Shown here: positions 13,131-34,295 of the stretch, in pieces
Position numbering within the stretch: the stretch's first letter is position 1
Layout of the letters: each line of letters opens with the position of its first letter
Assembly (NCBI GenBank): GCA_007449985.2
Contig: VIIQ02000027.1
Coordinates: 212,554 to 276,553, forward strand
DNA from: Desmodesmus armatus
Lineage: Eukaryota; Chlorophyta; Chlorophyceae; Sphaeropleales; Scenedesmaceae
Direction: 5' to 3'
DNA: 64,000 bases
Translations under genes and position numbers: made by a program
The notes under the pieces: model-generated
What the model was told of the DNA's origin: nothing
Database searches by the model: none
Seen by the model: the letters and a program-made list of their open reading frames with translations, nothing else

Positions 13131-13774
13131 CACAGACACTGACAAGAGTGCTCACACCTTTGACCACCAAAGAGGAAAAAGCAGGTTGAACACACAGCTC
13201 GGATGCATTTCATCACATCAACATGCTGCCACACGCTCTGCATTGACACTAAAATCCGAGTCTTGATCCAACCAACAGCTTACCCCCCTACAATTCAATC
13301 CTGTACTCCTCTGCAGCAGAGTTGTATTCTAAGACATGCTGCGGTACCACTGTCTGAGACAGCAGGAGCAGAGGCTCACTGCAGATTGGAGGCTACGCAG
13401 TGGTGTCCAGCCAGTTCTAAATGGCCACCGAGCTTCTCAACCCTGGCCCCTAGAAGCAGGGTGGATCAACCAACACCTTCGCGGCAGGATACATCATGTG
13501 CACAAAAAACGCTAATCACAAAAGCAGGCTTTGACTCAGTCAACAAGCAGAGCTCCTGCACAAGCCACTTTGCTAACACACACAGCGGGGCCCTTGTCTC
13601 CCATGAGTGCCCCAAAACCCCACCCTAGCCGCACTGCAGGATCCACCACACAAGCCCTAGGGCGATGACATCCGTACAACACGCCCTGATGCAGTCCACC
13701 CACAGCAGCCTCCCACTGCCGCGGTCCCCACAATGTCACTCATTGAATTGAAGGGGAAAAACCAGCACAGCCGC

Positions 13775-15661
13775 TCAGTGCATGGCAGCGTCAGCAGCCT
13801 GCCCCTGAGGGGCCTTACGCTGCTTGAGCTCCCAGAAGCCCTTCAGCATGCGCAACTGAGCATTGGTGTTGAGCATGGCAAAGGGTACATGTGTATCACC
13901 TGTGGTTGCTGGCCCTGCACTTGACTGCACCCAAGCCTTCCACAGAGCGAGGCTGGTGCCGGCGCCTGGGCCACCACCTGTATACACACCTGGCACCACA
14001 CCGCCCTCAGCACGGCTGCTGCACGATGCCGCAAACATGGCGATGCCCTTGCTGTTCAACTGGGAGACAGGCACGTTGCGTAGCTTTGCGCTGGCCATGG
14101 TGAGCTCAAATTCTGCGGGCCAAGGCTTGGAGTGAGCGTGCTGCTGCTGCTGCTTCGGAAGGTTCTTCATAGCGGATGCTGCAGCTGCTGTGGCATGGAT
14201 GGCTGTGCTGAGGCCTGGAAAGCTGCCTGCCTTCATGGATGTTCCGGTGCCTGCTGCAGCTGGACCACCCCTGCTGATCTGCTGGTCCAGTGCTGTCAGC
14301 AACACCATCCGGGGTGTCATTGTGCTGCGCGCTGCGTACCCAGGCTGCTGCACTGTACCCAGCTTTGCCTGCTGTCCTGCACACACACTGCCCTGCTTGG
14401 CCCTGCCTGGCCCCACCTGTTCATCCAACTGTCCCACCAGTTGAGTCAGTTGGCCGTTCAGCTCACGCAGTCCTGAATGTTGGTCTGCTGTCAGGCTGGA
14501 GGCATGCATGGACTGGGTGGAAGCCACCAACAGCTGGGCTGCTGCTGCCAGATGGTGCAGGAGCTGCTCAAGGGGGCCTGCAGTTGTTGTGGATGCTGTA
14601 GGTGCGCCTGACCTTGGAGCTGGTGCTGGTGCTGATGTTGGTGCTGATGCTGGTGCTGATGTTGGTGCCGATGCTGGTGCTGACGTTTTCGGCACGGGTG
14701 ACTGGTCAACATCATGTCCTGATCCTGTGAAGGGCTCCTGGGGCTGTTCAGGGTGTCCTGTGGGGGCACCCATGTCTGCCTGGCATACTGTAGGGTTGGT
14801 GCAACCACCCTGCACGGCACCAACAGGCAGACAATGCCTCACACGCAGCACACCCCCTGCAGCAGCATGCTTGATTGGCACACTAGTACTATGGCTCGTC
14901 ATGTTGGCTACATGCGCATGCAGAGTGTGGCATTCACCTCATGACAGCGCCGCAACAATGAACTGTAGCCACTCATCACAAACATGCACAACACTACTTG
15001 CACAACTACCCCATTGCAGGTAATTACATTACAACCCGCCAGGAAAAAACCAGTAGAGCCGGGCAAAGTTCATGCGTACAGCAGGGCGTGCTGACCAGTG
15101 ACCTGCAGAGGCTGCTGGCAGTATTCGCTGCATCATGGTTGGCAACCACACCTGAGGAGCTCCTGCAGTGTCCAACTCTGTTGGTGCCTCAGCACGGGCC
15201 TTCTTGGCTGCAGGAGACCCAAGGGCCGCTTCAAGGGCCCCGTCAATGAAGGCTGTCACCTCAACATCATCCTGCAATCACAGTCAGCACAGGCAGACAC
15301 ATGGGTGACGAGTGTTGTGCTCTTTCCGCACTGCGGCACAATTCTGGCCTTGGCCATGACCTGACTGTGGGCAGCACTGATATCTGCACACAGTGTCAGA
15401 GCAACAAGACAAGTGAGCTGGGCTATAGCCATAATATGAATGCGTTCTATGAGCAGCAACAACAGCTTCTTGGATGTTGCAGCGATGGCATTCCATGGTT
15501 GGCAATTTGGTTGGCAGTTAAGCTGATTGTTGTGCTGCGTGCTGGCGGTCTTGTTGCTGTTGCAGCAAGCCCAGTACCTGCTGGACCACGTCTCCTTGTT
15601 CAGTGATGTCAACAGCAACTTCGTGTTGTCGCTTTCTTTTGTGAGGGGCGGGGGACGTCAT
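13775..15661 (-). CDS. MED27-partner gene, copy 1 (intact, function unknown)
   Basis: Three exons, 15578-15661 (ATG 15661), 15080-15271 and 13775-14809, give 28+64+345 codons (436 aa plus stop) with GT-AG borders and no internal stop. Residues about 7-13 (HKRKRQH) and a later AAKKARAE look like nuclear localisation signals. A conserved piece (APQVWLPTMMQ) sits in exon 2. Exon 3 begins with Pro/Ala/Ser low-complexity sequence containing an Ala-Pro-Thr-Ser repeat, then a helical Gln/Leu-rich region (LEQLLHHLAAAAQLLVAS). It ends in a conserved C-terminal block (VPVSQLNSKGIAMFAA, LWKAWVQSS, LRMLKGFWELKQRK). I do not recognise the family. It is divergent to MED27 in all three units, so the pair may share regulation. 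This is the only copy that still reads through to the conserved C-terminus. Confidence 0.7.
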
Positions 15662-16344
15662 GCTGTATTCAAGGTCAGCAGTAGCCCACTTTGCTGTGTC
15701 ACCGCCTGTGCCTGGCCCTTGGAACTGGCTTAGCTGTCAAGATGCGTCGTGCTGGGAACTTTAGATGCCAGTATGACGTCCAGGCAGCCTTGTTCTGTCT
15801 TGGGGCGAGTGGACTGCACACCAGCAAAACTGAGCAGCACTGCTGTGATGTGCAACTGACAACCCGTGTCTCAGGTGCCCACGTCGCTGTGAGTAAAAAG
15901 TGTGATACAAGAGTGTGTATCGACTGATTCGGATGCCAAGCCGTCGTGGGGAGCAGCACTGGACACCTGTCAGTGTGTTTGTAACACAGGGTGTAAGCAA
16001 GACCCTTGAACACGTTTGAAGAAGCCACAATCACAACGTCGGTGCTTGTGTATGGAGCTTGAATTTTGAGTGACGCACATCGACGGCAGCAGGATGGATG
16101 CCATCACCATCTTGGACAGTGCCTTGGATCAGACTGTCTTTCCTCCTGGGAAACTTTCCTCCTGGAAACTTTGCAGCAGTCGATTCGCTTTAACGGGCGC
16201 ATTTGTTTTCAGTACTATTACGCTCTATAAGTTAAGTAATAACTTGTTTTCAGTACTATTACGCTCTGTAGTCAATCTAACAGTCAACCTCTAACTGTCA
16301 GGGTCGTCTTTGACAAGTTGACCCTGCTGCAGGTGTGTCCTCTG

Positions 16345-17260
16345 CTATACTCCATATGACTTCATATGACTCTGCCACAGTGTTACACAAGACCCAGGTA
16401 GCAGCAACTCTTCTGCCACAGCACCCACTGCACCCCTGCCACTGCACAGGGCGACTTTCCGTGCATCAACCTCTGCGCACAGTTCGTGAGCTTGGGTGGA
16501 GCACTGGCAAGCAACCACCGCCATTGCTGCTGCTGCTGCTGCTTCTGCTCTGGCTGCTCTGGCTGCGTTTTCTCTCTGGATTGCTGCTGCTGCAGCGGCA
16601 GCTGCTGGTGGTGGGAATGCTGCTGTTGCTCTTGCCGCTCTCTGGACTGCTGCTGCTCCAGCGGCAGCTGCTGGTGCTGGCAATGGACGTGCTGCTGGGG
16701 GTGCGAATACTGCTGCGCTGGCTGCTGCGGCTGCGTGTGATGGTGCTGGTGGGGGTGGTGGGGGTGGTTGCGGCACGACTTGCGTGTTGACGGTTGTGTA
16801 CAGCTGAAAACTGCTGTTTCCCTTCCGGTACCGTTCTGGGCACCACTTCACATTGACTTCTGTCACCGTGACAGTGGTACCATCCTGCAGCAAGAATGCC
16901 GTTTTCTGTTTAGGTCCTGCAAGTATGTTGTTCCAACCAACTGTCGACGAGGTTACAATGCACTGGTATGCTTGTGCATTTCACCCACCTGCAGACTTGC
17001 TTTCAAGTTGTCCACCTTGGCAGCATCAAAGCAGAACAAGCCTCTCGTGCAGCTGTCATCCATGCAGTCAGCCACTTCCACCACCAAAAATGTGCTTGGC
17101 GATGTGAATTTACGGCTGGATACAACGTTGCATAGCACACTGCAGCTCCGTTCCCAATTGTTCACGTCAGCGACATTGAGATGCATGGTGTACGCTGTTG
17201 ATGCACTTGTTGTGGTTGTGAGGATGTCAGGCCTTGCAGCATGTCGCAATTTGCATGTAG
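16345..17260 (-). CDS. OB-fold / RPA-like protein encoded antisense in the Fanzor element
   Basis: Two exons are visible: the 3' exon 16345-16884 (stop at 16345) and an upstream exon from about 17250 to 16989, joined in phase by CAG|GTGGGT and CTGCAG|GATGG. The joined product reads as a single OB fold of the RPA70 kind: a W-then-beta strand (VNNWERSCSVL), FLVVEVADCMD, GLFCFDAAKVDNLKASL, then DGTTVTVTEVNVKWCPERY and SSFQLYTTVNTQVV. In RPA folds these are the strand 1, strand 2-3, linker and strand 4-5 positions. A Pro/Ala-rich tail of about 120 residues follows. The true start is not resolved; no in-frame ATG was placed. It would bind single-stranded DNA. RPA-like proteins are common passengers of some eukaryotic transposons. 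Confidence 0.5.
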
Positions 17261-18042
17261 ACTCGCGTGTCTGACTAGCACGTCAGCATGTCGGACTGCG
17301 ACGGTGGAATGCTGTCGGAACGTCACTTCAGGACCACAGAATGCAGCACTATGGCGACGCAGCTCTCTTATCGCCAATTGTCATTGTATTCCATCAAAAT
17401 AAGCAGTTCTCGCTTACATTCACCAAAATGCCAGCGTGATACGCTCAGCGCGTGTCTTGACAGCAAGTCGATCGCACAATAATCAAGCACCGTGTTGAAA
17501 CGAACAGCCGCTGGTTCTGTTGAACAATCGGTGCCGTTTTTGCACGCGTTGAGTGAGTGTGCGGTGAGTTGCATGGCAGCAGTGGTGTGGCAGTCTGAAT
17601 GCACTAGTTTAACTGCAGTGCAACAGGAGACACAACTTCAACCTGTATACAGCTGATGCCCCGAGTAGCGCAATACACTCAATTACACTGTCTACTCTCG
17701 TTGCCCCTGCAGGACCTTTACTGTCCCAAGAGAGCGCGAGAACATGGCCTGGTGTTCATTTGCATTTGGCCATGCGCCGCAGCAAGCACTGCATGCAGGT
17801 GGGGTGGATAAGACCATTGATTCCGTAAGGGAGGGAAAGCCATGCGATTGGATCAGAAGTGACCATGGAGGGCTGGAGAGGGTGTGGGTTGTTTGGATTG
17901 GCTTGACGGGTTGTGCGGTGCTCGTAGCCTGTTGCCCCCCCCCCTTCCCCACCACACCACTGGTGATGGCATCCCCAAGGGGGCCTGTGGGACACCGTCA
18001 TCAACCAGACAACTCCACCCGCTATAGTGAGAATGTAAACAG

Positions 18043-18357
18043 ATGCTCAGAATGCACCCCTGCTTGTTGGATGCTCTGTGTGCCTCACCCTCCCGCGCAC
18101 AGGTTTTACCTCCAGATGGCAAGCATTGCATTGCTGCTGAGGAGGCATACCTCATGCATCCGCCGCCCATAGGCAAGTCCAGGGCAACTGGAGAAGCCAA
18201 GTCTAGGGACAATGGCAAGCCCCTGCCCATGCGCCAGCGTGGACGCCACGGCACTACTGCGCGCTACTGTGGTGTGTGCAGTGAGCCGTGGCTGTTCACC
18301 CCACGTGCTAACCTGCGGCAAGTGCAGCAGCAGCATTGTGTCCTTGCTGACCACACC

Positions 18358-18389
<32 letters not shown>

Positions 18390-19788
18390 AAAGTGGCCCA
18401 GTTTGGGGCCAGCACAGCCCGTGGCAGTGCTACCCCCGTGTGTGCCTAGCAGTAACGGAGACTTGGCACAGCAGCGCTACTCTAGACTGGCGGCATCTGC
18501 TGACAGTCCAAAGCTGTCTGCAGCGAAGGCACTGCTGCATCAGAAGGAGGATCAGTCTCATTGCAGGCAGCGTCCTCGTGTGCGTCAGCCAGCAGTAGTA
18601 GTACCAGCAACAGCCAGCCGGGTGTCAGCGGCGCCCACAAAGCCAGCAGCAGCAGAAGCACACACCATCGTGTCGTCAAATCGCTTCTCTGTGCTGCTGC
18701 ATGATGCGCCAGCAGACGAGGAGGCGATGGACACTGCAGACGCCTCCGCATGTCCGGCACAGCAGTGCAGCACACCCAAGCAGCAGCAACAGCAGCAGGC
18801 ACCCCGGCAAAAAACACCGGCAGCCGGCAGGTTGCAGCGGTCACGTCCTGCCCAGAGTAACCCTTCTGCTTGCAGTGGTGACCCCACCACAGCTGTGCAT
18901 GGGCGATGTTGCCACAGGAAGCCAACCTGCGGCTGTCCCGTGGCGCAGCAGTCTGCCAGCACTGGGCGCCAACTGGGAATGGTTGTGGCGCTGTTGCTGC
19001 TTGTGGCTGGCCTAGGGGTGTTTGCTTCTACTACAGCAGCTTCAGCAGACATCGCTTTTACAGGCTATTACACCGTGCCAGGTTTTGGTGTTTTGGTGGT
19101 TGGCAACAGCAATGCAAGCCACGACTGGTACTGGTGTGTCACAGCTTGTGTTATATGTTCTGTGGTGTTTGCATGGGTTGCAATAGGCCCGTGCAAACGG
19201 CCTCTGGCGTGTGCTCTCTGCATGCGTCAGTGGCGTCGTGCAAGGCACCTTGGCCGTGGCCTCATGCGTCGGTTGCAGCAGCTCTGTATGCGTGGTTTTG
19301 TGTGCATTGTGTTGATACGCGGTTTATTGGGTGTGGTTGCTGGGCTTGATTGTTTGGTACAAAATGGACTGCGTTCTGTGCATCTTGCTGTGTTGATGGG
19401 CGGCCCTGCAGCTTGTGCAATCGTTCTGCTTATATTTGCATGTTTGAGGGCTGCCTGTATTCATTTGAAACATAGTCATGTGGTGTTGCTCTATAACTGC
19501 ATCATACTCTGTTTGACGTGCATGGGTGGTGGCATCCTGTACGGTTGTTGTGTGCGGGCATTAGAACTTGTCGTAGTTGGATACTGCTTGTGGCAGTGGT
19601 CAGACAGACCTGCACTCTTTGCACTGGTCAGCTGCTGGAGGACTTGGGACACGCCCAACAGCCGTTGTGCTTCCATGCACGGCTCCTGGCCAATGGCTAT
19701 ATGCAGTGGGGCTTCGAGTGAGTGTGTAGGCTCCTATGCTTTGCCTGCCACAGCTGGATTGCAACCCAGCCTGATTGCCCAAAATTAG
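18043..19788 (+). CDS. Unknown element ORF: Gln-rich N-terminus with Cys motif, multi-pass membrane C-terminus
   Basis: Open for 581 codons from an ATG at 18043; an AG acceptor at 18103 suggests an upstream exon. Features in order: a Cys motif (RYCGVCSEPW followed by HC about 20 residues on), a poly-Gln run from a CAG repeat (about 18361-18389), a disordered Gln/Pro/Ala region with NRFSVLLHD, a second Cys cluster (RCCHRKPTCGCP), and about six hydrophobic segments between 18970 and 19620 such as MVVALLLLVAGLGVF and ACAIVLLIFACL. The membrane half is T/G-rich, so it could instead be a fortuitously open intron that links the N-terminal half to the Fanzor exon, whose acceptor is at 19889. No family was recognised. 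Confidence 0.5.
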
Positions 19789-19889
19789 ATGACACATGAG
19801 CACATCAGCATACAGTGTGCGTTGATGCCAGCGCCATGCACTTCTCCACTCACAATTTGTGACTGCCGTCTGCTGCCTGTTGCCGCAGG

Positions 19890-22800
19890 ATCTGGTCTGG
19901 CCGCAGGACACCCCCACCCGGCTTGTCTACACAAGATGTCGTCGGCGAACTGACAGAGTTGCTGACGCCTACAAGAAGGAAGCCACGCACCGTGGATACC
20001 GAGAGCGAACACCTTTTCTTTGCGGCACTGAAGGCCGTGACAGTTGTGCCAGGGGCGCAGGCTCCACTGCGGTATAAACTGCCAGAAGCCTTCGAATTCT
20101 ACGTGCGTGAGGTGTGGCAGGTCGAACACCGCTGTGTGTTGCCGCATTGTGTGTCGGGCCGTGTTGCTAATGCATGGTTGACTGCATTGGCACAGTCCAT
20201 GGCACAAAACCATGGCCAGCATGTGCTCAACCTGCCATTGCGCATCAAACGCCTGGTCAAGGCTGTGGTCTTGTGTGCATTCTGCACGGCTGGCCTGCCA
20301 AGGCCAGGCCGCAAGCAGTTTGGTGTGTTGGCTCGTGGCATGTCGGATGGGTTGCTCAAGGGTGATGCACTGTCCGTGTTTGCAGCACATGTTTTTGAGC
20401 AGCAGCCTGGCCAGCAGCAAGCTGACGAGCAGCGTGTTGTGCTTGCTGCTTCTTTGCTTAGTGCTCCTGTGCACCATTGCATCAGCAGGCTGCAGCAGCA
20501 ACGCCTTGCACAACAGCCTGCTCAGCAGACAGACCAGGATTACCTACTGCCTGTGCAGCAAGGCACAAACACCATGAACTATATGCATGCACGCATCATA
20601 GAACTTGTGCAGGCTTGCAGTGTCATGCGGGCATCAGTGATGTTGCTGAAGGACACACTCTTTGCTGTTCAGCCATGCTCCACACAGGAGATGGTTGCAG
20701 TTGCAATGCAAGCGTCTCAAACAGCTCACCGCATCTGCGACTGGGCCGCGCACTTGCATGGCATGGCAGCACATCTTGTACCGAGCACACCAGACAATGT
20801 AGCCATTGTGTCACACCTGTTGGCTGTTAGCAGGCAGTCTCTTGGCGTATACAACCAGCTACAGCGCATTCAGCTCGTGGGTCATGTGACGGGGCCTGTG
20901 TCCCATGCTGGTATTTTGCACGCCCGTTCGGCGTCTGCTTTTGCACTAGAAGGCAGCAACAATGCATGCCTGCATGTCAGCACCGCATGTGCCTACATCA
21001 ACAGCCTTGCAACAGCAACGACAGTGGCAGATGCGGCAGTGGCAGGAGAGGCAGTAGCAGCAGCACAGGCTGCTGCACCGCCCCCAAACACAGCCGCCAT
21101 ACCTATCGTATGCGGTCCTGCCACGCTTCCTATCAACACCCCAACACGCCGCGACCCAGAAACAACAGCAGCACGCACCTTCACCAGCGCGTTGGTGCGT
21201 GATGTAGGGTGTGGGTTGCAGGCCACGCAACATGCCTTGCGCTGTGCTGTTGACCGCCGCAAGCTGGCGGCGGTTGCAGAGTGTGTGCGGAGTGAGGAAC
21301 TGGCAGGTCAGCTCCACGCAACCCTGACTTCTACTTCCTCCGGCGATGCTGCAGCTGCCCTGCTGGCCCCCTTGGCCAGGCTTTGCAGCAGCGTGTTGAA
21401 CCATAGTATGCTGCGGCGTGGGCATGTCGTGCTACAGTATGCGGACCTACTGACGAAGCGGGACAGGCTGCATGCAGCACTTCAGCAGCGTCCACAGGGC
21501 CGTCCGCCACCCCCGAAGCAGGCGCAGACCCGGCAGCAGCAGCGACAGCAGCGGCAGAGAAGGGGGCAGGGGCAGGCTGGTGTAACTACTGTGGTGCTGC
21601 CGCCTTTGGCACGCGCACACCGCCAATCGCGGTGTGCTGCAGACAAGGCCAGCGCTGCAAGGAAGTACAGCGCGGCACAGACGGCCAGGAATGACTTGCA
21701 GCGTGTCCAGGATGCCTTGTTTGCGCGACTGCGCCAGCTGGCTGCCCCCTCTAACCTGCCCTTGCCAACCTCTTTGCAGCTGCGGCAGTGCTTAACGCAG
21801 TTGCGCCGTGCTGTGTGCCTCCTGGACACATGTGAGGCAAAGCTAGTCGAGGCAGCAGTGACAGCAGAGCGCTTGCGCGGCGAGGCGGCTGCAGTTGTTG
21901 CTGGCCAACCACACAGTCAGCAGGGACATCAGCCGAGCGAGGCGGCAGTGAGGGAGGCATGTGCATCTGCGCGTTTGTGCATGAGGTTGGCTTTGGATCA
22001 CGCCCGTTTGGTGGTGCCCGTGTTAGGTGCGTGCCCGGATGCGCCAGTTGTGCCTGGGTTTGGAGTGTGGGCTACCACCCCTGACACGCAACTGAACGAG
22101 TGCGGTGACGAGGCCCGTAGTGTGTGGCAGTGGGTTATGGGCATGTGTCTGCAATTGCTATTGTTACTGGCTGTAGACGCCGATGCCGGGAGTGCAGCTG
22201 CAAGTGCTCCATCCCGCGCGCCAGCACCGGGATTGTTGAAAGGCGTGTTGCAGCAAGTCAACAAGATAGAGGCTCAGTGGCGCTCTTGTCGCACTGCATT
22301 GCAACGCCTCCCACATAGCATGACGCCGCATCCTCATTATGGTTTTACACATTTGCACTTGACACCCACACTATTGGGTTTCCTCAGAAAACATCTGTCC
22401 GGCATGAGTCCCGAGGCACGCAATGATTGGCGGGTGTGGCGGCGGCAACAGCGTGGTGTTGACCCACTACCCGTGCCTGGTGTTGACACTGTTGATGTCA
22501 TCTGCGATGGTGCTGTAGAGGACATCCTCGAGAACAAGGATTTATTTAGTTTGTTGTTTGACCTTGACCGCTTGAGGGTCTTGTGTGGGGAGGGAAGGCC
22601 CAGTGGGAGACGCAGCTTTGCAAACCACCTTAGCACTGACTGTGTGTCGTTGCATGTGCATGCGACACACAACAAAGACGAGCGTGCCACCAGAAGCGCG
22701 GTCAGGTCTCTTGATGGACAGCAAAAGGCTCGCAGGGCCCGGCAGCGCGTGGCCGAGGCAGCTGCCCTGGACCATGCCCGGCAGGCCGTGGGCAGGGCAA

Positions 22801-24281
22801 TTAAGTTGCCAACACCAGGCACAACCCCTGCGTATGTATTTGGCGGGGGTGATGATGACTGCAGCACTGTTTGTAGCACTGTGGCCGCTGCATCTAGATC
22901 TAGGTCAGACCATGTACGGGTACTGGACGGTGACTGGCGTGTCCTTGTGGCCCGCAATGCTAGAGACGGCCCTGTAGTCACGCACGTGCCCGCACAGGCC
23001 CTGCCCAAGCAGGTCAAGACAAAGCCGGAAGGCTTGGCACAGCATTGGGTTGACTCCCATGCATCTGACCCAGCAGAGGGTGCTTCGGTGGAAGAGTGGG
23101 ACTTGGCAAGTGATTACAGTGTGGACAGGACTAGCTACGACTTTTCTGACTCTGACTCAATTGACAGTAGCTTTTGTGTGGAGTCCAAATGTGACAGTTG
23201 TGCGCCTACTGTTGGACAGCCGGCTCTGGTACATGGCAGATGTGTGACTGTTGAGGCAGGATGTGGGCTGCGGGTGACTGGAGTTGACCCAGGTGTGACC
23301 AGCATCGTGACTGCGGTCACTGCAAACCATGGCGTGCGGGGCGACGGCACTGATGGAGGGGATGGCTGGGTGTATGCTGTTAATGGGAGGGAATACCGGT
23401 CTGCATGTGGGCTAGATAGGCAGCGCCATTGGCTGCATGGGCGTATCAAGCGTGCTGGTGTGGCACTGCTGCTCAAGCACTTGCAGAGAACCGGCGAGAA
23501 GCATGGCCAGCATGACGCCTTTGTTTTGCATGCACGTAAGGCCATTCATGGTTTTCCTCAGTTGCATGCTGTGTACGGTTGCAGGTCTGCCCGGCATCAC
23601 CGGTTTAGAATTGGCATGCTGCAGGACCGGCAAATGCACAGGATGTGCCAGTGCTTGGCATTGGGGCACACGGGGGTGCAAGGGCGCAAGTGGCAGAAGC
23701 CGATGGGTTGCAATGCAGGCCCGTGTGTCCCCCGGCCAAGTGTTGCTGTTGTTTGCATGGGGGATGCATCAGCAGGTTGGGGCGGGCCAGTGTCTCGGTC
23801 CATCAGTGCCCCTGTCATGAAGCTGAGGAACTTTTTTAGGGCACAATATGGGTCGGCAGACGGCGTGACTCGTGGTGGGCGCACAGACATGCATTGGGTG
23901 TCTGTGCACGAGTACCGGACCAGCCAGACCTGCTCTCGCTGCTATGACGAACGTGGGCTGAAACAGCACCGCAGGGGACGTTTCAAGCTCAAGCAGTGTG
24001 TGCATGGCGAGGCTGTGTCGACACCTGACAGGTTGCGGGAACAACTGCATCATGTTGTGGTTGGAGAGGATAATCACTCGCGGCGTGTACCATTGGTCCT
24101 GGACAGGGATATCAACGCTGCCCGTGTGTTGACAGCCAGGGGGGTGGCACAACTGGTGCCTGCCATGTGTGTACACCAGGGGCAACTACAGCAGCTGGGA
24201 CGCTGTGTTGACCGTGTGGTGCGCAAGGACTGGTTAAACCGGCAGCGGCGGCCACGACAAGAAGAGGGGGCAGCAGTGTAA
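19890..24281 (+). CDS. Giant Fanzor: eukaryotic TnpB-like RuvC nuclease, about 1460 aa
   Basis: One exon, open from 19863 to the TAA at 24279-24281. There is no in-frame ATG before 20199, and an AG acceptor at 19889 suggests an upstream exon. Counting from codon 19923, the C-terminal 390 residues have the Fanzor/TnpB layout: a beta strand block (FANHLSTDCVSLHV), RuvC-I VTGVDPGVTSIVTAV (Asp1122), a degenerate RuvC-II strand VVCMGDA lacking the usual Glu, the alternative Glu1330 in HEYRTSQTCSRC with Cys1337/Cys1340, a second metal pair that seems to be Cys1359/His1361 (QCVHG), and RuvC-III LDRDINAARVL (Asp1394/Asp1396). Fanzors use RNA guides to cut DNA; here the active-site residues are all present. 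The N-terminal 1000 residues are extra compared with usual Fanzors (roughly 500-800 aa), are Ala/Gln/Arg-rich and helical, and match nothing I know. No stop or frameshift interrupts the ORF, so the gene may be active or recently so. Confidence 0.85.
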   Translation: MWSGRRTPPPGLSTQDVVGELTELLTPTRRKPRTVDTESEHLFFAALKAVTVVPGAQAPLRYKLPEAFEFYVREVWQVEHRCVLPHCVSGRVANAWLTALAQSMAQNHGQHVLNLPLRIKRLVKAVVLCAFCTAGLPRPGRKQFGVLARGMSDGLLKGDALSVFAAHVFEQQPGQQQADEQRVVLAASLLSAPVHHCISRLQQQRLAQQPAQQTDQDYLLPVQQGTNTMNYMHARIIELVQACSVMRASVMLLKDTLFAVQPCSTQEMVAVAMQASQTAHRICDWAAHLHGMAAHLVPSTPDNVAIVSHLLAVSRQSLGVYNQLQRIQLVGHVTGPVSHAGILHARSASAFALEGSNNACLHVSTACAYINSLATATTVADAAVAGEAVAAAQAAAPPPNTAAIPIVCGPATLPINTPTRRDPETTAARTFTSALVRDVGCGLQATQHALRCAVDRRKLAAVAECVRSEELAGQLHATLTSTSSGDAAAALLAPLARLCSSVLNHSMLRRGHVVLQYADLLTKRDRLHAALQQRPQGRPPPPKQAQTRQQQRQQRQRRGQGQAGVTTVVLPPLARAHRQSRCAADKASAARKYSAAQTARNDLQRVQDALFARLRQLAAPSNLPLPTSLQLRQCLTQLRRAVCLLDTCEAKLVEAAVTAERLRGEAAAVVAGQPHSQQGHQPSEAAVREACASARLCMRLALDHARLVVPVLGACPDAPVVPGFGVWATTPDTQLNECGDEARSVWQWVMGMCLQLLLLLAVDADAGSAAASAPSRAPAPGLLKGVLQQVNKIEAQWRSCRTALQRLPHSMTPHPHYGFTHLHLTPTLLGFLRKHLSGMSPEARNDWRVWRRQQRGVDPLPVPGVDTVDVICDGAVEDILENKDLFSLLFDLDRLRVLCGEGRPSGRRSFANHLSTDCVSLHVHATHNKDERATRSAVRSLDGQQKARRARQRVAEAAALDHARQAVGRAIKLPTPGTTPAYVFGGGDDDCSTVCSTVAAASRSRSDHVRVLDGDWRVLVARNARDGPVVTHVPAQALPKQVKTKPEGLAQHWVDSHASDPAEGASVEEWDLASDYSVDRTSYDFSDSDSIDSSFCVESKCDSCAPTVGQPALVHGRCVTVEAGCGLRVTGVDPGVTSIVTAVTANHGVRGDGTDGGDGWVYAVNGREYRSACGLDRQRHWLHGRIKRAGVALLLKHLQRTGEKHGQHDAFVLHARKAIHGFPQLHAVYGCRSARHHRFRIGMLQDRQMHRMCQCLALGHTGVQGRKWQKPMGCNAGPCVPRPSVAVVCMGDASAGWGGPVSRSISAPVMKLRNFFRAQYGSADGVTRGGRTDMHWVSVHEYRTSQTCSRCYDERGLKQHRRGRFKLKQCVHGEAVSTPDRLREQLHHVVVGEDNHSRRVPLVLDRDINAARVLTARGVAQLVPAMCVHQGQLQQLGRCVDRVVRKDWLNRQRRPRQEEGAAV

Positions 24282-24433
24282 GCAGCGGCTGTGGCAGCAG
24301 CAGGGGTGTCGGCGGGGTGGCAGTGCACCATCAGCCAATCCCCGGTGGTGCCAGGGCTAGATGTGTGGGATCGTTTAGCAGTGCCTATTGGTTTACAATG
24401 TCGCTGAACTGCCCCGCGGGGCTTGGAGGTCCC

Positions 24434-24645
24434 CAGCAGAGGGGAGACCCTCTGCTGAGTGGGGGTGGGGTGTTTGGGGGGGGAGGGGGGGGGGGGGAGT
24501 GTTTTAGTTTTGGCCTTACCATCGGTGTGCCGGGCAAGATTTGCAGCATTGTACAATTAGCATTGTCTGCAAGACTTTCAGTTGCATCCCTGCAAAGGGA
24601 TTGCTTGCTCTGCGAAAGCAGGCAAGTTGCGCGTCAACTGCGCAA
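24434..24645 (+). ncRNA. Cluster of three strong hairpins after the Fanzor stop codon: candidate guide (fRNA/omegaRNA) region
   Basis: Hairpin 1, 24434-24457, has a perfect 10-bp stem closed by a GAGA (GNRA) tetraloop. Hairpin 2, 24604-24626, has 5+4 bp with one bulged T and a GAAA tetraloop. Hairpin 3, 24627-24645, has a perfect 6-bp stem TTGCGC/GCGCAA with a 7-nt loop and abuts hairpin 2. All lie between the Fanzor stop codon and the right end of the element, which is where TnpB and Fanzor guide RNAs are usually encoded. The RNA assignment is inference; hairpin 1 could also act in 3'-end formation. Confidence 0.45.
24471..24501. repeat. G-rich tract between the Fanzor gene and element end
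   Basis: Nearly pure G run with a few A/T interruptions, between hairpins 1 and 2. G-quadruplex potential on the plus strand. Homopolymer length may be unreliable in the assembly. Confidence 0.8.
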
Positions 24646-27250
24646 AAACCGGCCTGTGCATCACTGGCTCGGTGGGCAGCCATTTTTTCTTTATGGGTCG
24701 AGTTTCTCCCCAGCTGCCCATGAAGAACACACCAGGATACTTTGAAAGTTCCTGGTGTGACTATTCAGCTACCGGTGTGATCATGCAGGCAACAACTCCA
24801 GTGATCATGCAGGCAAGAAAAGCAGTGGACACAGTTAGCACGCAAAGTCTTACATTATGGTACCACGTCCTGCAGGAGAATGTGGCGTCTGGCCGTGAAG
24901 CAGTCACTTTAGGTGAGTTGCTGCTGCACCACCACCTGGCTGTCACCTGCATACATCGACAAGCTACATCAGCTGGCTGCACAGCAGCAGATTCTCGGAC
25001 CAGCAGGCTGAGCAGAACGCAACGCCATCATTTGAACAGCCAGGCAGGGGATATAGGCCTTGGGGCTGCAGGAGCAAGCCAGGCAAGCAGAAACAGCTCC
25101 GCAGGAGCAGGTGGCAGCGGCGCTGAGCGGCCTCAGTGCTGGCATGAATTTCACTGTGCAGCAGTCACCCCATCATGTCCACACGCAGCCGCTGAATGGT
25201 ACAGGTGCCTGTCAATTGGGGCGCCTGTGCCAACACTCACGCAGCAGTAGCCACATGCGGCGGAAGAAGTTGGGCTTGCTCTGTACAGACCAACGTGAAA
25301 CACCCAGCTTAGATCTAGCAAGACAGCATGGCTCCCTGTCACCTTGTCAACGTCTTTTTGTCAACAGCGATTCACTCCATGGCACTGCGCCTGCTGCCTA
25401 TGTTATGTCCGACACGCTGTCTGTTCACTCAACTGGCCCCTTTCTGCCACAGGCCCCCGCATCCTGTGGCAGCTGCTGCAAAAGGGGCGAGCTGCCGCAC
25501 CCCAGCTAGCCCGTCACCTGCTGCGCGGTACCTCAAACCGCATGGTCGGCTACTTTGACAGCAGCAGCCGGCCATACCACCCTGATTAGTCAAGAGGCAG
25601 GGAGCCATGGACGTTGCAGCTGTAGCACACATCAGTGCCTATGCGTATGAGGTAAGTATGAGGGTTGGGGCCTGCTGCTGGTGGTGTTGTCAGGGGTTGG
25701 CTTGCACAGCTGGCATTGTTGTCCACAAGTGTTGTCATCTGTCGACAATGCATGACGCTCTTGTTGGAACAGCCTGGCAGCGCTGGGTGCTGGTGTGCGG
25801 TTGTGAGTTGACCAAAGGTTGACTATATGACAGTTGATGGCTGGTTTTGGCGCGCCCGTATTGTTCATGTTGCTGGGCTTCTGCATTCGCGTGTTGCTGC
25901 TGCTGGATCACCACACTATGGCGGCATGACCACTCAAATCGGCGCCATCATAATTTGTACTGCTGGTGCTGCTGTTTCCAGGTGCGCATGGCAGGCCAAG
26001 GTGCCTTAGTGGCGTCTGTAGCCATCTCCCCGCAGCTGTGTGTGTGGACAGTGCAGAAGGCCATGACAGTGGACCATAGGACTGTCAGCAGACACTAGGT
26101 GAGCCTTGACTGTGTGATTGAGTGAGTGATTTGTAGTGCAGCACATCATGCCAAGCCACCCTGTTGAGGGCTGGATTGAGCTGTTGGAATACGCCAGCGC
26201 CCGGCTGAACTGAACTGAGTTCCTGAAGCAGACCTTGTGATCAGGAGAGTCCTACGGCACAAGTACGTGCCCTTGCATCAAAGCGCCCCTTCCCTCTTTG
26301 CTGCAACGCTGTGTCTGCGTCAGGTATTCAAGCGCATTCAAACCCTGGCAGCAGCCCATGCCACGCTGGCAATATCACCAAGCAGCACCAGCATCAGCAA
26401 AAATGGCAGCAGCCGCCGAAGCAGTGGTGTAGATGGGAGTGGCACTTGAGGCGCTGTTGTTGTGGCCTGCGTCTTATGATGACCTACTTCCCAGGCTGTG
26501 TGATGTGAGTGGCAAGGTGTTCACTTGGGCCCCTGGGACTGCCACGCCGCTGCCGCCATATGTGCGCCCTTACTGGTGAGCCGCACGGGGCTGCCTGGAG
26601 GTACCAATGTGGCGGTTTCAGTGGGTCTGTGCTGAGTGTGTCTGTTAGTGGTGACAGCAACAACTTCGAGGGGTTGAACTAAGGGCGTACCGCCAACCTG
26701 TAGAACCCAACGCGCTGCTCGATTGTATCTCATGTTCCTGTTAGTCCATAATATGCCTCCGTGTGCAGCCTGGCACTGTTTCAGCATCTTATGGCTGACC
26801 TACAGCAGCACTACTAGCTGGTAACACAAACCAGGAATGCGCAAAAGTCCGAAAAACTGCTCCCTAAAGTGTGGTGCTCTCTGCCTTGTGTGCGGTGCCG
26901 TCTGTTTATCTTCTTTCAGGTTGTTTGAATGAGCTGCGCAAGGCTGTCAGCAACAAAGCTGCTGGTAAAGCATGCCATGCACACCTCATGGCCTTGCCCA
27001 TCAGACAAGCCCCCAGCAGCAGCACTAGCGGCAGCACTGACCGTCAGTGCTGGCAGCGGTTGCCAAGAAGGCCGACAGTCTGGCAAGCGGCAGTGAAGCA
27101 ACAACTGCAGATGCAGAAACTGCAGCTGCAGATCCTTGCAGTTGGCAATGCAGGCAGCACTGCAGCTGGGCTGTGCCCTCACTCCATGGGATGCTCAAGC
27201 CTGCACATTTGAGGGAGCAGCTGAGGCATGTGGTTGGGGGCGTGTGTTGA

Positions 27251-28657
27251 CTGTGAAATTGTTTGCAATATGGTAACTGTCGTTAGGGTTTGGGTGTTGT
27301 TCAAGGTGGAGTCTCTGCTGCTGCTGTGTTGACAGCTGGTTGTAAGTCCATGTCACTTCAGGCGATCACATTGTGCAACTGAAGCATTGTTGCATTGCTT
27401 GCTCAAGCCATTGACAAGGCATACCTACATGTGATCAGCATCAACAAGAACTGGTGTTTGAATTGCTATTGCAGAAAGCGGTTCATGCGGTCACGGCCAG
27501 CCTGGCGTAAATGGTGTGTAGTGCCCTGCCCCTGTGGGCAGCTGCCCTGTGCAGGCATGACCTGCCAGCACGCAAGCACTGTCATGTGGCTTGTGGAACT
27601 GCACGTAACAATCAGCAGCCCCTGCAGCCGTTGAAACAGCAAATCATATAAAGATTGTCATCCATACCATTGCGTGTGGACTGTGTCAAGATGATTCTTG
27701 GCCGTGCATAGCCAACTTGCCTCATCCAGTGCAGATGCTCTGCAACAAGCCAATCAACGCTGCTACGCAGGCCTGGCCCATCTGATTCACCTAGTTCATG
27801 CTTTGCATAGCATGCCGATGCATGCCAGCATCTGCTATTACAAGTGGTACAAAGACATAGACAAGGAACCAAACCCTAGTCATGAGCAAGGGCATGGCCT
27901 GAGCTGGTCAGGTGTGAACCGGCCTGAATCAGGGCTGCCGCATCTACAGCCCACATCGGCACTTGACGCTTGAAACTGCAGATTTGCTTTTGTAAACAAG
28001 GCTTGACACGCGTATCCAAGGGCCAACACAGACAGTGACAAGAGTGCACACATTTTTGACTACCCAAGAGGACACAGCGGGCTGAACAAACACACCACAT
28101 GCTGCCAAATGCTCTGCATTGATCCCGAAATGGGCCATGGGGGCGCCCCACACAACCACCATGCCCCCCCCCCCTCATGGACCCTTCTCTGCCTTTTGGA
28201 AGACATGCACCGGTGCAGACAGCAGGAGCAGTGGCTCAATGCAAAAAGATGCTGCGCAGTGCCAATGAGCCAGTCTTCTGTCAAAGAGGCCAGCTGTGTT
28301 TCTCAAGCCCGGCCTCTGAAAGCTGGGCGGATGGTGAACCATGATGACACCATCGCATCAGGATTCAACATGTGCGCGCAACCAGAAGATCACAAAAGCA
28401 GCCTGAGGCTAGGATTCAGTCAACAAGCTGAGCTCCTGCATGAGCCACTGTGGGGCACATTGAGGGCCCTTGTCTCCCATGAGTGCCCCGACACCCCCAC
28501 CCTGATGAGTACAATGCACCTCAGGCGCGGCGGCCGCGCTGCAGTAACCACCACACAAGGGGAACGACACTCGTACAACACGCCCCGATGCAGCCACTCA
28601 ATGCCGCAGACCCCACATTTTCACTCAAATGGAAAAGAGAAGACTCACCGCAGCCAT
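27251..28657. other. Spacer between unit 1 and unit 2, no gene
   Basis: Contains the decayed 3' flank of MED27 copy 1 (about 27251-27660) and the downstream flank of partner gene copy 2 (about 28030-28657), which aligns with 13140-13760. A plus-strand open frame at 28109-29047 is mostly antisense to the partner pseudogene and is not supported as a gene. Confidence 0.6.
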
Positions 28658-30525
28658 TCAGTTCATGTCAACATCAGCAGCCTGGCCCTGAGCGATGTTG
28701 TGCTGCTTGAGCTCCCAAGACTCCTTCAGCATGCGCAACTGAGCTTTGGTGCTGAGCATAGCAAAGGGCACCTGTGTTTCACCTGTGGTTGCTGGCGCTG
28801 CACTGGACTGCAACCAAGCCTTCCACTTAGCGAGGCTTGCGCCGGCCCCTGGGCCTCCTGGAAACACAGCGCCCTGCTCAGCACGGCTGCTGCATGCCGC
28901 CGCAAACATGGCGATGCCCTTGTTCTTCAGCTGGGAGACAGGCACGTCGCGCACCTCTGTGCTGAACATGGTATCCTCAAAGTCTTGGGGCCAAGTCTTG
29001 GGGTGATCGTAAAACCGCTGCTTCTGTGGATTCTTCTTAGTGGATGATGATGAGGCAGGGGGGGCTGTGCTGGGGCCTGAGGAACTGCCTGCCTTCATGA
29101 AGGCACCCATGATCATGGGTGTAAAGAGGCCATCTTAGGCTGCTGCAGCTGGACCCCCCCTGCCACTCTGCTGCTCTGACGCTGCCAGCAACTCCACCTG
29201 GGGTGGTGTGGTGCTGCGCTCTGCATGCCCAGGCTGTGGCATTGTGCCTAGCCTTGCCTGCTGTCCTGCACACATCCCGCCCTGCTTGGCCGGGTCTGCC
29301 AGCTGCTTGGCCCTGTCTGCCACCACCTGCTCATCCAACTGTCCGACCAGTTGAGTCAGCTGGCCGTTCAGCTCACGCAGTCCTGATTGTTGCTCTGCTG
29401 TCAGGCTGGAGGCAGGCGTGGACTGGGTGGCATTCACCAACAGCTGGGCTGCTGCTGCCAGATGGTGCAGGAGTTGCTCCACAGGGCCTGCAGCTGTTGT
29501 GATTCCTGCAGGTGCCCCTGGACCTGGCGCTGGAGCTGGTGCTGATGCTGGTGCTGATGGTTCAGGCGCTGCTGACTGCCCAGCATCGTGTCCTGATCCT
29601 GCAAATGGCTCCTGGGGCTGTTTTGGGTGTCCTGTGGGGGCGTCCACTTTTGCCTGGCCTACTGTAGGGTTGGTGGACCCGTCCTGCACAGCATCACGAC
29701 ACAGACACACTTTGAGCGGCTCTCAGCACACCTCCTGCAGCAGTGTGCTTGATTGGCACACCAGCGCTACTGATCATGTTGGCTACACGTGCATGCAGAG
29801 TATGTCAATCACTGAACTCATGACAGCACCGCAGCTTTCAAGTGAGCTACTCTTCACTGAACATGCTCCACACAACCCCACTGCAGGTCGGCCGTCAAAT
29901 GGCATGCCAGCTCACTCATTCTGGCAACAATCAACAGTCGAGCTGAGCAATCTCCATGCGTACAGCAGGGCGTGCTGAGCAGTGACCTGCAGGGCTGCCG
30001 GCAGTAATTGCTGCATCATGGATGGCAACCACACCTGAGGAGCTCCTACAGTGTCCAACTCTGTTGGTGCCTCAGCACGGGCCTTCTTGGCTGCAGGAGA
30101 GCCACGGGCCACTTTGCAGGCCATGTCAACATCATCCTGCAATGACAGTCAGCACAGGCAGACACATGGGCGAAGAGTGCCGTGCTCTGTTTGCAGTACG
30201 GCATGGTTGCAGTCTTGGCAGATGAAGCAGTGACTGCGATGAACTGAGTGTGGACAATTGAGTAGCTGATACCTCCATCGTCAGAGCAACAACACAGGTT
30301 CGGTTGGCTATCATAGACATAGTATGCCTGCACAAGCTGGGCAGCAGCAACAGCTTCATGGATGTTTCAGCGATGTAACCCTATGGTTGGCAGTTGTGCT
30401 GCGTGCTGGCGGTCGTATTGCTCTTTTGGCAAGCCCATTACCTGCTGGCCCACGTCTCCGTGTTCAATGAAATCAGCACCGACTTCTTGTTGTCGCTTTC
30501 TTTTGTGGGGTGCGAGGGACGTCAT
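28658..30525 (-). pseudogene. MED27-partner gene, copy 2 (broken)
   Basis: Exon 1 (ATG at 30525, with the basic HKRKRQQ signal) and its donor survive. The exon 2 equivalent (about 30140-29950) has an internal deletion and a one-base loss that shift the frame. The exon 3 equivalent runs to a stop at 29135. The conserved C-terminal block (VPVSQLKNKGIAMF, KAWLQSS, LRMLKESWELKQ) is still well preserved but out of reach in the next open segment, 28658-29116. The preservation of that block suggests recent death or a shortened product. Confidence 0.75.
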
Positions 30526-30944
30526 GCTGTGTTTGATGTCAGCAGTAGCCCAGTGTGATGCTGTGTCACAGCCTGTGCCTGGCCCTTGGAACTGGATGAG
30601 CTGTCAAAATGCGTAGTATTGGGAGCTGTAGATGTGACTGTGATGTCCAGGCAGCCTTGCTCTGTCTTGGGACGAGTGGACTGCACACCAGCAAGACAAG
30701 TGATGCGCAACTGACACCCGTGTCTCAGGTGTCCATATGACTGTGAGTCAGAAATCGTGATGTCAGAAGATGCTGATGAAATTGGAATGCCAAACAGTCG
30801 TGAGGAGCAGTGCTGGTTGCCTGTCAGTGCGTTCGTAGCGCAGGGTGTAAGCAAAACCCTTGAACAAGCTTGAAGAAGCCACAACATCTACGTCGATGCC
30901 TGTTTATGAAGCTTAATTTAAAGTGCCGCATAGACGGCAGCAGG

Positions 30945-33660
30945 ATGGATGCCATGACCATCTTGGACAGTGCAGTGCCTTGGATCTGCTAGATCAGGTA
31001 CCATTGTGGAGTCCACACTGTGGACCATGTGACCAGGCAAGGTGCCAGTGGACACAGTCGACACACAGATCATGACAGTTGAGCACCATGCCTTGCAGGT
31101 TACACGTCCTCAAGAGAATGTCAGCCATGCGGTGTTGCCGGGCATCTGGCCTTGAAGCAGTGCAGTCCCTTGGGGTGAGTTGCTGCTGCTGCACAACAGC
31201 CTTGCTGCTCCTGCTTCACAATCGATAAGCTACAGCAGTGGCTGCACAGCTGCAGAAGCCTTGCAGCAGCATCAGCAGCAGCAGTGCAGGGCGCAACACC
31301 ATCAGTTGTCCAGCCAAGCAGCTTCAGCCTCTGCGATCTTACTACAACCAAGCAGGGACATGGTCCTCAGGGCCGCAGGAAGAAACCAAGCAAGCAGCAG
31401 CAGCTCTGCAGCAGCAGGCGGCGGCGGTGCTGAGCGGCCTCAGTCCTGAACTGATGTTTCCTGTGCAGCTGTCACCCTAGCATGCACACATGCAGCCGCG
31501 GGGAAATACATGTGCCTGTCGATCTGGGTGCCTGGCCATCACACACGCAGAAATAGCAAAGTGTGGCAGCCAACCTTCAACGACCCAGCTTAGACCCAGC
31601 AAGACAGCCTGACTCCCTGTCACCATGTCAATGACCCCATTGATTGTGAACAGCAACCCACTCCATGGTACCGCGCCTGCTGCCTTCGTCTGTGTTGCCG
31701 AACACACCGTTTGTGCATTTAACTGGCCCCCTGTTGTCACAGGTCCCCACGATTTGTGGCAGCTGCTGCAGAAAGCGCGAGCTACCGCGCCCTGGCTAGC
31801 CCTTCACCTGTTGCGCAGTGCCTCAGACTGCATGGCATGCTTCTTCAACAGCAGCAACAGCAGCAGCAGCTGGCCATATGACCTTGACAAACGACAGGAA
31901 CATGGGGCGGTGGATGCTGCTGCATGCATCAGTGCCTATGTGAATTGGGTAAGTGTGAGGCTCGGGGCCTGCTGCTGCTGTTGCTGTTGATGCTGAGGGT
32001 TTGCTGGCACAGTCGGCATTGTGTCCTTTGTGGACAATCCAGGAACTCTCATCTGAACAGCCTGACAACTCTGGGTGTGAGAGTGTGTGTGTGTTTTGGG
32101 GAGGAGGGTGGGACACGTGGTCGTGAGCTACACCAAGCTTGACCAAGTGACAAATGTTGGCGGCTTTTGGTGCGTTGGTACTGTAAACATTGATGGGCTT
32201 CTGCATCCGCGTTGTATGCCTGCTGCTTGATCACCACACCATGACGGTCATGACCACTCAAAAACGCGCCGTCATGATATGTGCTGCTTGGTCCTGCTTT
32301 GTCCAGGGGCGTGTGGTGAGCCAAGGTGTGTTTGAGGCAGCTACAGCCACCTCCCCGCCTGGCAGCTGGTGTGCGTGTGTGCTGACAATACAGACAGGAC
32401 GAGACACCGGACTCTTGGACTGACAGCAAATACCAGGTGAGCTTGACTGTGTAAGTGAGTGAGTGAGTGAGTGAGTGAGTGAGTGAGTGAGTTGTCGACG
32501 GGGTGAAGAGTCAGCATGCTATGCTGCTTTGTTGTTGGGGTGTGAATGAGCTGTTTGATCAGGGCAGTGCAGCAAAGCCCTTTCAAGCCACCCTGTCGAG
32601 GGCGAAAGTGAGCTGTTCCACCAACTTGCAAGTGCCTGTACCTGCAACAAACTCGAAATATTTCCTGAAGAACTCCTCTTGACATGGAGGGTCCTACTGT
32701 CATGCCGCCCTGCACCCTTTACTGCAGCACTGTGGCTGCGTCACGTGTTCAAGCGCATCAGCAGCCTGTCGATAAGGGCCCTCCAACACCTTTACACCCT
32801 GGCAGCAGCCCATGCCATGTTGGCAACACCACCAAGCAGCAGCAACAGCAGCATCAGCACCAACGGCAGCCGCCGCCGAAGTAATGGTGCAGGGACAGTG
32901 GCACAGGCGCTGCTGCCTATGGCTGGCGTCCTATGATGACCTGGTCTCAAGCCTAGGCCGGGCCATGTGATGTGAGCGGCAAGGTGGCGACCTGGGCCCC
33001 TGGGACTGCCACGCCGCTGCCGCCATATGTTCGCCCTTACTGGTGAGTTGCATGGGGCTGCTTGTGGGTACCAGTGACGGTGTCAGTGGGTCTGTGCTGA
33101 GCGTATGGGGCTGATACAACAAGCTGCAGGGCCTGTGTACCGTCAACCTACTGCGCTCAGCCTGGTTCCTGACAGGCCAGGAATATGCCTATGTGTGCAG
33201 TATGACACTGTCTCAGCATGTCTTTGGCTGACCTAGTAGCAGAACTGCTAGCTAGTGACACAAATCGGAAATGTGCGCACGATGAAACTGCTCCCAAAGT
33301 GTGGTGCTCACTGCCTCATGTGTGGTGCCGGGTCGTTTGTTCTTGCGCAGGTTTTGTCACTGGATAAGCTGCGCAAGGCTGCCAGCAGCAGGGCCGCTTG
33401 TACGGCATACTACGCACACCTCACCCCATGGCCCCACCCATCAGACAACTCCTGAGCAGCAGCACTGGCGGCTGCACTGACTGCTGCCACAAATCGTGAC
33501 AGCCTGACAATCGGCGTTGAAGCACAGCTGCAGATGCAGAAACTGCGGCCGCAGGTCGTGCAGTTGGGAATGCAAGCAGCACTGCCGCTGGGGGCTGTGC
33601 CCTCACTCCATGGGATGCTCAGACCTTCACAGACGACGAGTGGAGAGAATTGAGGCATGT
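30945..33660 (+). pseudogene. MED27: MED27 copy 2 (broken)
   Basis: The start region (ATG 30945) aligns with exon 1 of copy 3, but a 5-bp duplication puts TAG after 15 codons. Exon 2 (about 31099-31175), exon 3 (about 31240-31490), exon 4 (about 31741-31949), exon 5 (about 32308-32433), exon 6 (about 32741-33043) and exon 7 (about 33360-33660) are all recognisable with indels and stops; for example, exon 7 stops after the Pro-Ser-Asp-Asn-Ser stretch. No insertion is present, which makes it a useful empty-site control for copy 1. Confidence 0.85.
32454..32493. repeat. GTGA microsatellite after the exon 5 donor of MED27 copy 2
   Basis: About ten GTGA/AGTG units begin roughly 20 nt after the exon 5 donor. 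The same repeat occurs at the same place in copy 3. Confidence 0.9.
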
Positions 33661-34295
33661 GATTGGGGTTGAGATTGTCTATGAAGATGTATTCTGAAAT
33701 TGTGAATGTGGTTGGGGTCTGGGGTTTTGTTTGGTGGGGGCCTCTGCTGCTGTTTGTGTTGGTCACTGCTGACAGCTGGTTCTTGCAACCCAGTCACTTT
33801 GGGCGATCACATTGTGCGATTGAAGCATTATTGGCAGTGCTAGCTCAGTCCATTCTCAGCGACACAGAACCCCACAGATGAGCACTATGAACAAGAATGG
33901 GTGATGAAGAGCAGTTGTCGAAAGTTGCTTTTGTTGATCACTCCCCTTGTGGGCAGCTGCCCTGTGCAGGCATGACCTGCATGGAGGAAAGCACTGTCAA
34001 GGTGTCTTTTGAAACTGCATGAAACAGTCAACATCTCACTGGATCAGGGCTATGCCTGATCGCTCTTTCAGGAGCCAAACAAGGCTCATAGGGCATGACG
34101 CACTCCTCAGGAGACACACGAACAGGGCAAACACAGGGCCACCTGCAAATCAATCTGTTACATTGGTGGCCGCCCTGACGTGGCCACTACACTCTCACTC
34201 ACGGAACAAACCTCCATGCAGTGCTTGACAGCAGCAGCAGGAGGGGCCTTGCGCTGCTTCAGCTCTCATGACAAAAGCCTCTTGTCAGACGCCCT

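Follow-up and report, generated by a model that had tools for sequence, protein, structure and literature searches.

The window analysed here, a 64,000-nucleotide (nt) stretch of contig VIIQ02000027.1 of Desmodesmus armatus (assembly GCA_007449985.2, positions 212,554 to 276,553), carries on its forward strand a long open reading frame (ORF) for a divergent Fanzor-type protein, which lies, close to certainly, within an insertion of 8,642 bp. Fanzors are eukaryotic cousins of CRISPR nucleases and are studied as compact eukaryotic genome editors. The ORF begins with TTG at 19923, counted here as residue 1, and its frame is open already at 19890, upstream of that codon. A preliminary description had reported a frame without a stop over about 4.4 kb and a protein about twice the usual Fanzor size. 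Both statements hold: 1,452 codons are open, compared with 600-700 amino acids (aa) for most Fanzor1 proteins (PMC11423790) and up to about 800 aa (PMC10711439).

The last third of the window protein served as query against some 5.8 billion proteins; among the 7,982 scored candidates, those sharing most words with the query, two relatives were found, P0001 (1,552 aa) and P0002 (1,114 aa; 44% identity over the matched part). A profile of the core of these three proteins added P0003, P0004 and P0005, fragments with 76-89% identity (7,994 scored candidates). The window protein and P0001 to P0005 are the six family proteins referred to below, of which P0003 to P0005 stop short of the TDG/TDC region. 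Searches with two peptide patterns per database yielded no relative among 121 pattern stretches in IMG/VR or among 132 in prokaryote genomes. The features of the protein are as follows.

19923 to 24281, + strand: Fanzor-type ORF with TTG as first codon, 1,452 codons (1,452 aa) and a stop ending at 24281; P0001 is an end-to-end homologue
19923 to 22232, + strand: N-terminal part, about 770 residues, without any recognised domain by Pfam or PHROG; P0001 has the identical residue at 573 of 762 aligned positions
22233 to 24242, + strand: conserved Fanzor-type core (putative end of REC/WED, RuvC, zinc ribbon), aligning over its length to P0001 (80% identity) and P0002 (39%)
22632 to 22658, + strand: STDCVSLHV, at the presumed place of the TDG motif of the Fanzor1 WED domain (PMC10711439); TDG in P0002, TDC in the window
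23088 to 23165, + strand: acidic Ser/Asp-rich linker VEEWDLASDYSVDRTSYDFSDSDSID before RuvC-I, kept in P0001, P0003 and P0004 and absent from P0002; P0005 stops short of it
23277 to 23294, + strand: RuvC-I, TGVDPG, with Asp1122 and the DPG signature, in six of six family proteins
23748 to 23765, + strand: RuvC-II strand VVCMGD without the canonical Glu, placed by alignment; IVGLGS in P0002
23907 to 23942, + strand: HEYRTSQTCSRC, with the displaced catalytic Glu1330 six residues before CxxC (rule from PMC10711439), in six of six
23997 to 24008, + strand: C-V-H-G, the third zinc-ribbon Cys, the fourth being missing; three Cys between the catalytic Glu and Asp in six of six
24102 to 24122, + strand: RuvC-III, DRDINAA, with Asp1396, in six of six; placed on the RuvC-III of TnpB by hhalign

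The window protein and P0001 align from end to end with 1,117 of 1,445 aligned residues identical (77%). Identity is about 75% in the N-terminal part, similar in the middle (260/349) and highest in the catalytic third (266/311, 85.5%). Random mutation of the window ORF down to 77% identity with itself produced at least four in-frame stops in 200 of 200 neutral runs (mean 15.1). The ORF is real rather than a product of chance, and the gene appears to be under selection.

The published markers that separate Fanzors from TnpBs are DPG at RuvC-I and a catalytic Glu displaced to a position six residues ahead of the zinc ribbon (PMC10711439). A relaxed motif built on them, DPG...E x6 CxxC...C...RD[VI]NAA, is present in all six family proteins and in none of 20,000 shuffles of the part of the window protein after residue 780, and D1122, E1330 and D1396 are invariant in the six. 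The distance from E to D is 66 in five of the proteins and 53 in P0002; in SpuFz1, E541 and D606 are 65 apart (PMC10432273). The RD of RuvC-III falls 5-50 residues after the zinc ribbon in the family, the interval demanded by the published Fanzor pattern D-X(125,275)-[TS][TS]-xx-[C4 zinc finger]-X(5,50)-RD (PMC3627910). In the window protein the ribbon reads CSRC, then C1359-V-H1361-G. An additional DPG at residue 493 of P0002, the first in that protein, lies outside the aligned RuvC and was set aside; the motif of P0002 starts at 796. The preliminary description had placed D1122, the Glu-less RuvC-II, the alternative Glu, the CxxC and RuvC-III correctly. Its complete Fanzor active site stands, by motif, for the D-E-D residues but does not extend to the zinc ribbon, where the fourth Cys is missing; the Cys-x-His given in place of Cys-x-x-Cys is right for the window protein, but the His occurs in only five of the six proteins (CQQG in P0002) and the single Cys alone is shared by the whole family.

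Comparison with profiles points the same way. The Pfam family PF07282 (Cas12f1-like_TNB) matches P0002 above its cut-off (26.9 versus 26.3 bits), and PHROG 506 (transposase) matches the window core (E-value 4.9e-4) and P0002 (E 3e-4). A TnpB profile was made from 42 non-redundant TnpBs out of 109 ORFs in 124 fetched loci. By hhalign it matches the zinc-ribbon and RuvC-III region of the family with a probability of 88.5 (P 2.7e-6), against a best P of 0.31 for the reversed family as control. A second alignment from the same comparison, insignificant in itself (P 0.15), placed TGVDPG on the TnpB RuvC-I, and a smaller comparison with seven TnpBs from the same pool, an overlapping set, gave P 9.9e-5. 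TnpBs were used because Fanzor comparators from IMG/VR proved unsuitable: a DE[FY..]RT...CxxC DNA pattern returned 11 stretches, six of them with the peptide motif, in frames of only 17-31 aa. Judged from sequence, Fanzor/TnpB ancestry of the window protein is close to certain, as had been proposed from the letters alone.

The N-terminal part is shorter than the roughly 1,000 uncharacterised residues first described, while the lack of a domain match has stood. Its length is put at about 770 aa because detectable similarity to the shorter relative P0002 starts near there: the alignment of the two proteins begins at about residue 771, and P0002 matches the window by tblastn from 22236 (E 8e-9). 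Neither Pfam nor PHROG gives a match, and the best match in the PDB (E 0.48) is not credible. Ala, Leu, Val and Gln are abundant in this part. An AlphaFold2 model from three sequences is helical throughout at low confidence (predicted local distance difference test, pLDDT, 36.8). A query of the N-terminal 780 residues matched P0001 as the sole relative among 7,994 scored candidates, so this half is known from P0001 only, in that database and at that sensitivity.

The surroundings of the gene are described by the following features; a slash marks the junction.

13128 to 16132, no strand assigned: host unit 1, left half, with homology to 28024-30986 and to parts of 34286-37258 (self-BLAST, local alignments)
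16133 to 24774, + strand: insertion of 8,642 bp carrying the Fanzor-type gene, lacking from the paralogous units 2 and 3; junction ambiguity 1 bp
16139 to 16168, + strand: two small tandem left-end hairpins (TTTCC...GGAAA), weak (DNA fold of 16128-16220, z-score -1.70, 9 of 200 shuffles as good)
24541 to 24760, + strand: candidate right-end guide RNA scaffold, several hairpins in a row up to the insertion edge (z -7.35, ranking second among non-overlapping peaks)
24728 to 24759, + strand: terminal hairpin CACACCAGGA...TCCTGGTGTG (z -3.88 for the DNA fold of 24700-24785, equalled by none of 200 shuffles)
24775 to 24789, + strand: predicted guide, host DNA just outside the right end, by analogy with SpuFz1; the first 9 nt equal those of unit 3, 10 of 15 overall
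24775 to 27617, no strand assigned: host unit 1, right half, with homology to 31141-34033 and to parts of 37506-39926 (self-BLAST, local alignments)
37252 to 37266, + strand: empty site in the paralogous unit 3, GGAACAG/GTGTGATC, by flank alignment

Self-comparison shows three diverged tandem host units between 13128 and 39926, 68-76% identical in their larger pieces. Their halves adjoin in units 2 and 3 and are 8,642 bp apart in unit 1 (16132 and 24775). The joined flanks TTGGATCAG/GTGTGATCA align with TTGGAACAGGTGTGATCA of unit 3, and no gap opens at the junction; unit 2 has diverged further in this stretch. Neither the insertion nor its structured right end figured in the preliminary description. 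The junction is explained without a target-site duplication. Since none is required by the empty site, a possible TCAG duplication (16129-16132 and 24765-24768) was discarded. The insertion site looks like a CAG/GT exon-intron border. The 5' end of the insertion is A or G. No inverted match of at least 10 bp with at most one mismatch exists between 16120-16200 and 24660-24775. When 16501-19889 was compared with 24282-28000, which does not bear on the insertion ends, the inverted score was 33 (controls 26-32) and the direct score 39 (controls 25-30), the direct excess probably reflecting CAG repeats. For the host units, no Pfam domain reached E 0.1 in the six frames of 24282-34000. Directly outside the right edge, at 24777-24824, a 24-bp unit occurs twice in tandem, the copies being 83% alike. 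The insertion also holds, upstream of the Fanzor-type gene, a 581-aa ORF (18043-19788) that is polyQ and then apparently hydrophobic; it has no Pfam domain, and a codon-usage scan gives a weak coding-like signal in its frame at 18350-18799, which may mark a 5' exon.

The right end was found to be structured in a folding scan of 1,063 windows of 220 nt on a regular grid. Moving rightward, the z-scores are -0.75 at 24481, -7.35 at 24541, -4.67 at 24601, -2.19 at 24661, -1.06 at 24721 and +0.94 at 24781, outside the insertion. In a coarser scan of 403 windows, four of them hand-placed, the hand-placed 24535-24774 ranked second (z -6.82). A fold of 250 nt at the right end reached z -4.91 on the + strand, with 0 of 200 shuffles as good, and shows about seven hairpins over some 220 nt. 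No Rfam family reaches its gathering score in the window. Five sub-threshold Rfam matches lie near the right end; the best, SCARNA16 at 24672-24824 (25.8 versus 65 bits, E 0.0017), crosses the insertion edge and was taken as chance. SpuFz1 takes its guide from the 14-15 nt beyond the right end (PMC10432273). By that analogy, the structured right end is likely the guide RNA of the Fanzor-type protein, and the guide would read GTGTGATCATGCAGG.

P0001 runs about 74 residues past the end of the window protein and closes in a RING (Pfam zf-C3HC4_3, 28.2 versus 27 bits). The last 50 or so residues best match the RING of cIAP1 (E 2.1e-7), and residues 1503-1544 are an IAP-type RING joined to the C-terminal end of this giant Fanzor-type protein. 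From its sequence this RING is predicted to tag proteins with ubiquitin. The pattern C..C...C.[HC]..[CH]..C...C..C occurs in no frame of the window. Because P0005 terminates at the same place as the window protein (EDGAAV), the short C-terminus is shared and not peculiar to the window copy. The P0001 RING suggests that partner modules come and go in the family. Among the papers found on Fanzor with RING fingers or ubiquitin ligases, the titles and abstract openings name no fusion of the two; one main Fanzor survey lies outside that search, and the fusion is not claimed to be unpublished.

With a probability of roughly 0.7, the locus is read as encoding a double-sized, divergent Fanzor-type protein in the 8.6-kb insertion of a probable mobile element, an RNA-guided DNA nuclease that would help the element to persist. 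The structured right end would be transcribed to give the scaffold of the guide RNA, and the guide itself would come from the next 14-15 nt, which are host DNA. The core would bind this RNA and cut copies of this site that hold no insertion, next to a motif derived from the left flank and ending in CAG. Such a target could be an allele without the insertion, into which repair would then copy the element. The N-terminal part may enlarge the REC lobe or dock a host partner, roles suggested by its conservation (75% to P0001), its richness in Ala, Leu and Gln and its all-helix, low-confidence model. A bolder extension, which is tentative and itself unlikely, is that RNA-guided DNA targeting and ubiquitination are linked in this family: in the P0001 lineage, a giant Fanzor whose large helical half docks partners would carry a RING, and the guide RNA would bring the ligase to cut or occupied DNA, the window lineage being the same machine without the RING.

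Several results weigh against a standard, working Fanzor nuclease. PF07282 remains below its curated cut-off in the window protein (20.4 bits, E 5.6e-4) and in P0001 (14.3 bits, E 0.048). NCBIfam gives no match for the window core or P0001, and its guided_TnpB model scores P0002 at 13.6 bits, far below the cut-off of 100. Searched with the family profile, the PDB yields no chain even at E 10, and with the whole window protein none at E 1. The AlphaFold2 model of the C-terminal core (six sequences) is uninformative, with a mean pLDDT of 29.5; no RNase H fold is seen in this low-confidence model, since it has only two strands of at least three residues. Both AlphaFold2 models (pLDDT 29.5 and 36.8) are unusable because the alignments are too shallow. 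Instead of the two CxxC of a C4 zinc ribbon, three Cys are found and the fourth is missing in six of six proteins. The strict published pattern fails in all six, also by the D-E spacing (120-160 published, 208 here) and by the Cys-D spacing. The Fanzor1 TDG is TDC in the window protein and in P0001 (TDG in P0002). Because of the missing Cys, the failed strict pattern and TDC for TDG, the protein is classed, on its sequence, as Fanzor-type and divergent rather than as a strict Fanzor1 member. The loss of the fourth Cys in every family protein, the long spacers (about 35 residues from the third Cys to RuvC-III and about 200 from the TDC motif to RuvC-I) and the conservation of an N-terminal part that makes up over half of the protein would also fit a Fanzor descendant that is no longer an RNA-guided cutter: a domesticated or element-encoded DNA-binding protein or regulator which retains the RuvC residues while the N-terminal part does the main job. 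This is thought quite improbable, as all three catalytic acids have stayed invariant and the catalytic third is better conserved against P0001 than the rest.

Doubts of another kind concern the right end and the state of the window copy. The right end folds almost equally well on the minus strand (z -4.68), so it could be a DNA structure. Read in this way, it would serve a Helitron-type or other hairpin-recognising transposase, and the guide of the protein would lie elsewhere. The terminal hairpin at 24728-24759 fits such a role. No transposase was found in 15000-19900 and 24282-29182, no Pfam domain being present in their six frames, which likewise counts against the mobile element; non-autonomous Helitron2 elements themselves have no Rep/Helicase protein. 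PMC3627910 describes three Fanzor1 families of Chlamydomonas as non-autonomous members of Helitron2, whose elements bear a hairpin at either end. A Helitron end needs one hairpin, whereas about seven stand here over some 220 nt, and a terminal DNA structure is considered possible but the less likely explanation. The window ORF begins with TTG at the position of the P0001 Met, and this, with a C-terminus that stops before the RING of P0001 and no RING in any window frame, would suit a decaying copy which has lost its start codon, the protein being made by sister copies only. Decay is regarded as unlikely: 1,452 codons have remained without a stop, the short C-terminus recurs in P0005, and a 5' exon could supply the start.

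Elsewhere in the window, a near-perfect palindrome of 157 bp (48922-49078, 92% self-complementary) gives the strongest fold on the grid (48901-49120, z -23.09). A direct repeat of about 350 bp (45667-46014 and 46130-46479) is probably recent, since its copies are 98.9% identical. Short minus-strand ORFs at 4584-5258, 1809-2633 and 59506-60195 carry partial FAD-oxidase_C, BTB and MMR_HSR1 GTPase domains, as expected of eukaryotic genes split by introns.

A conserved lineage of 1,450-1,550 aa, with an unmatched part of about 770 residues and one member bearing a RING, would show that Fanzors accept large regulatory or partner-binding modules. The empty site that survives in the neighbouring units allows the right end, the predicted guide and the predicted target motif to be named directly. 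In another alga, Auxenochlorella, the most abundant repeat encodes a Fanzor (PMC12633428).

Among known systems, the TnpBs of IS607/IS605 (e.g. E. coli InsQ) resemble the family in the region of the zinc ribbon and RuvC-III, which aligns, and differ in being bacterial, in their size of about 400 aa, in a canonical Glu some 50 residues ahead of the zinc ribbon, and in the hydrophobic residue of their RuvC-I D-x-G motif (PMC10711439). The insertion, with a clear 3' hairpin and weak 5' hairpins, is reminiscent of the Helitron2 carriers of Chlamydomonas Fanzor1 genes, a possible class for it; neither the 5' T of Helitron2 nor asymmetric terminal inverted repeats were found at its ends. IAP-type RING E3 ligases (cIAP1, XIAP) are matched by the C-terminal RING of P0001; the window protein has no RING, and by Pfam P0001 has no BIR domain. 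The Fanzor1 proteins (SpuFz1, GtFz1, PpFz1 and Chlamydomonas CRe-1/2/3) are alike in the DPG, the Glu six residues before CxxC, the RD-NAA and a TD-motif before RuvC, and also in a gene carried by an insertion with a candidate RNA between the stop codon and the right end. The family differs from them in its zinc ribbon of three Cys, separated from RuvC-III by a long spacer, in TDC for TDG in the window protein and P0001, in a D-to-E spacing of 208 in the window protein compared with 158 in SpuFz1, and in an insertion at which no terminal inverted repeat was found. Size sets the window protein and P0001 apart from published Fanzor1 proteins, 1,452-1,552 aa standing against 600-800 aa, together with the extra N-terminal part. 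That a Fanzor can acquire a domain for binding a partner has a precedent in PpFz1, whose FRI domain is a cyclophilin-binding insertion of about 100 aa inside RuvC (PMC11423790); the addition in the window protein is N-terminal and about 770 aa long.

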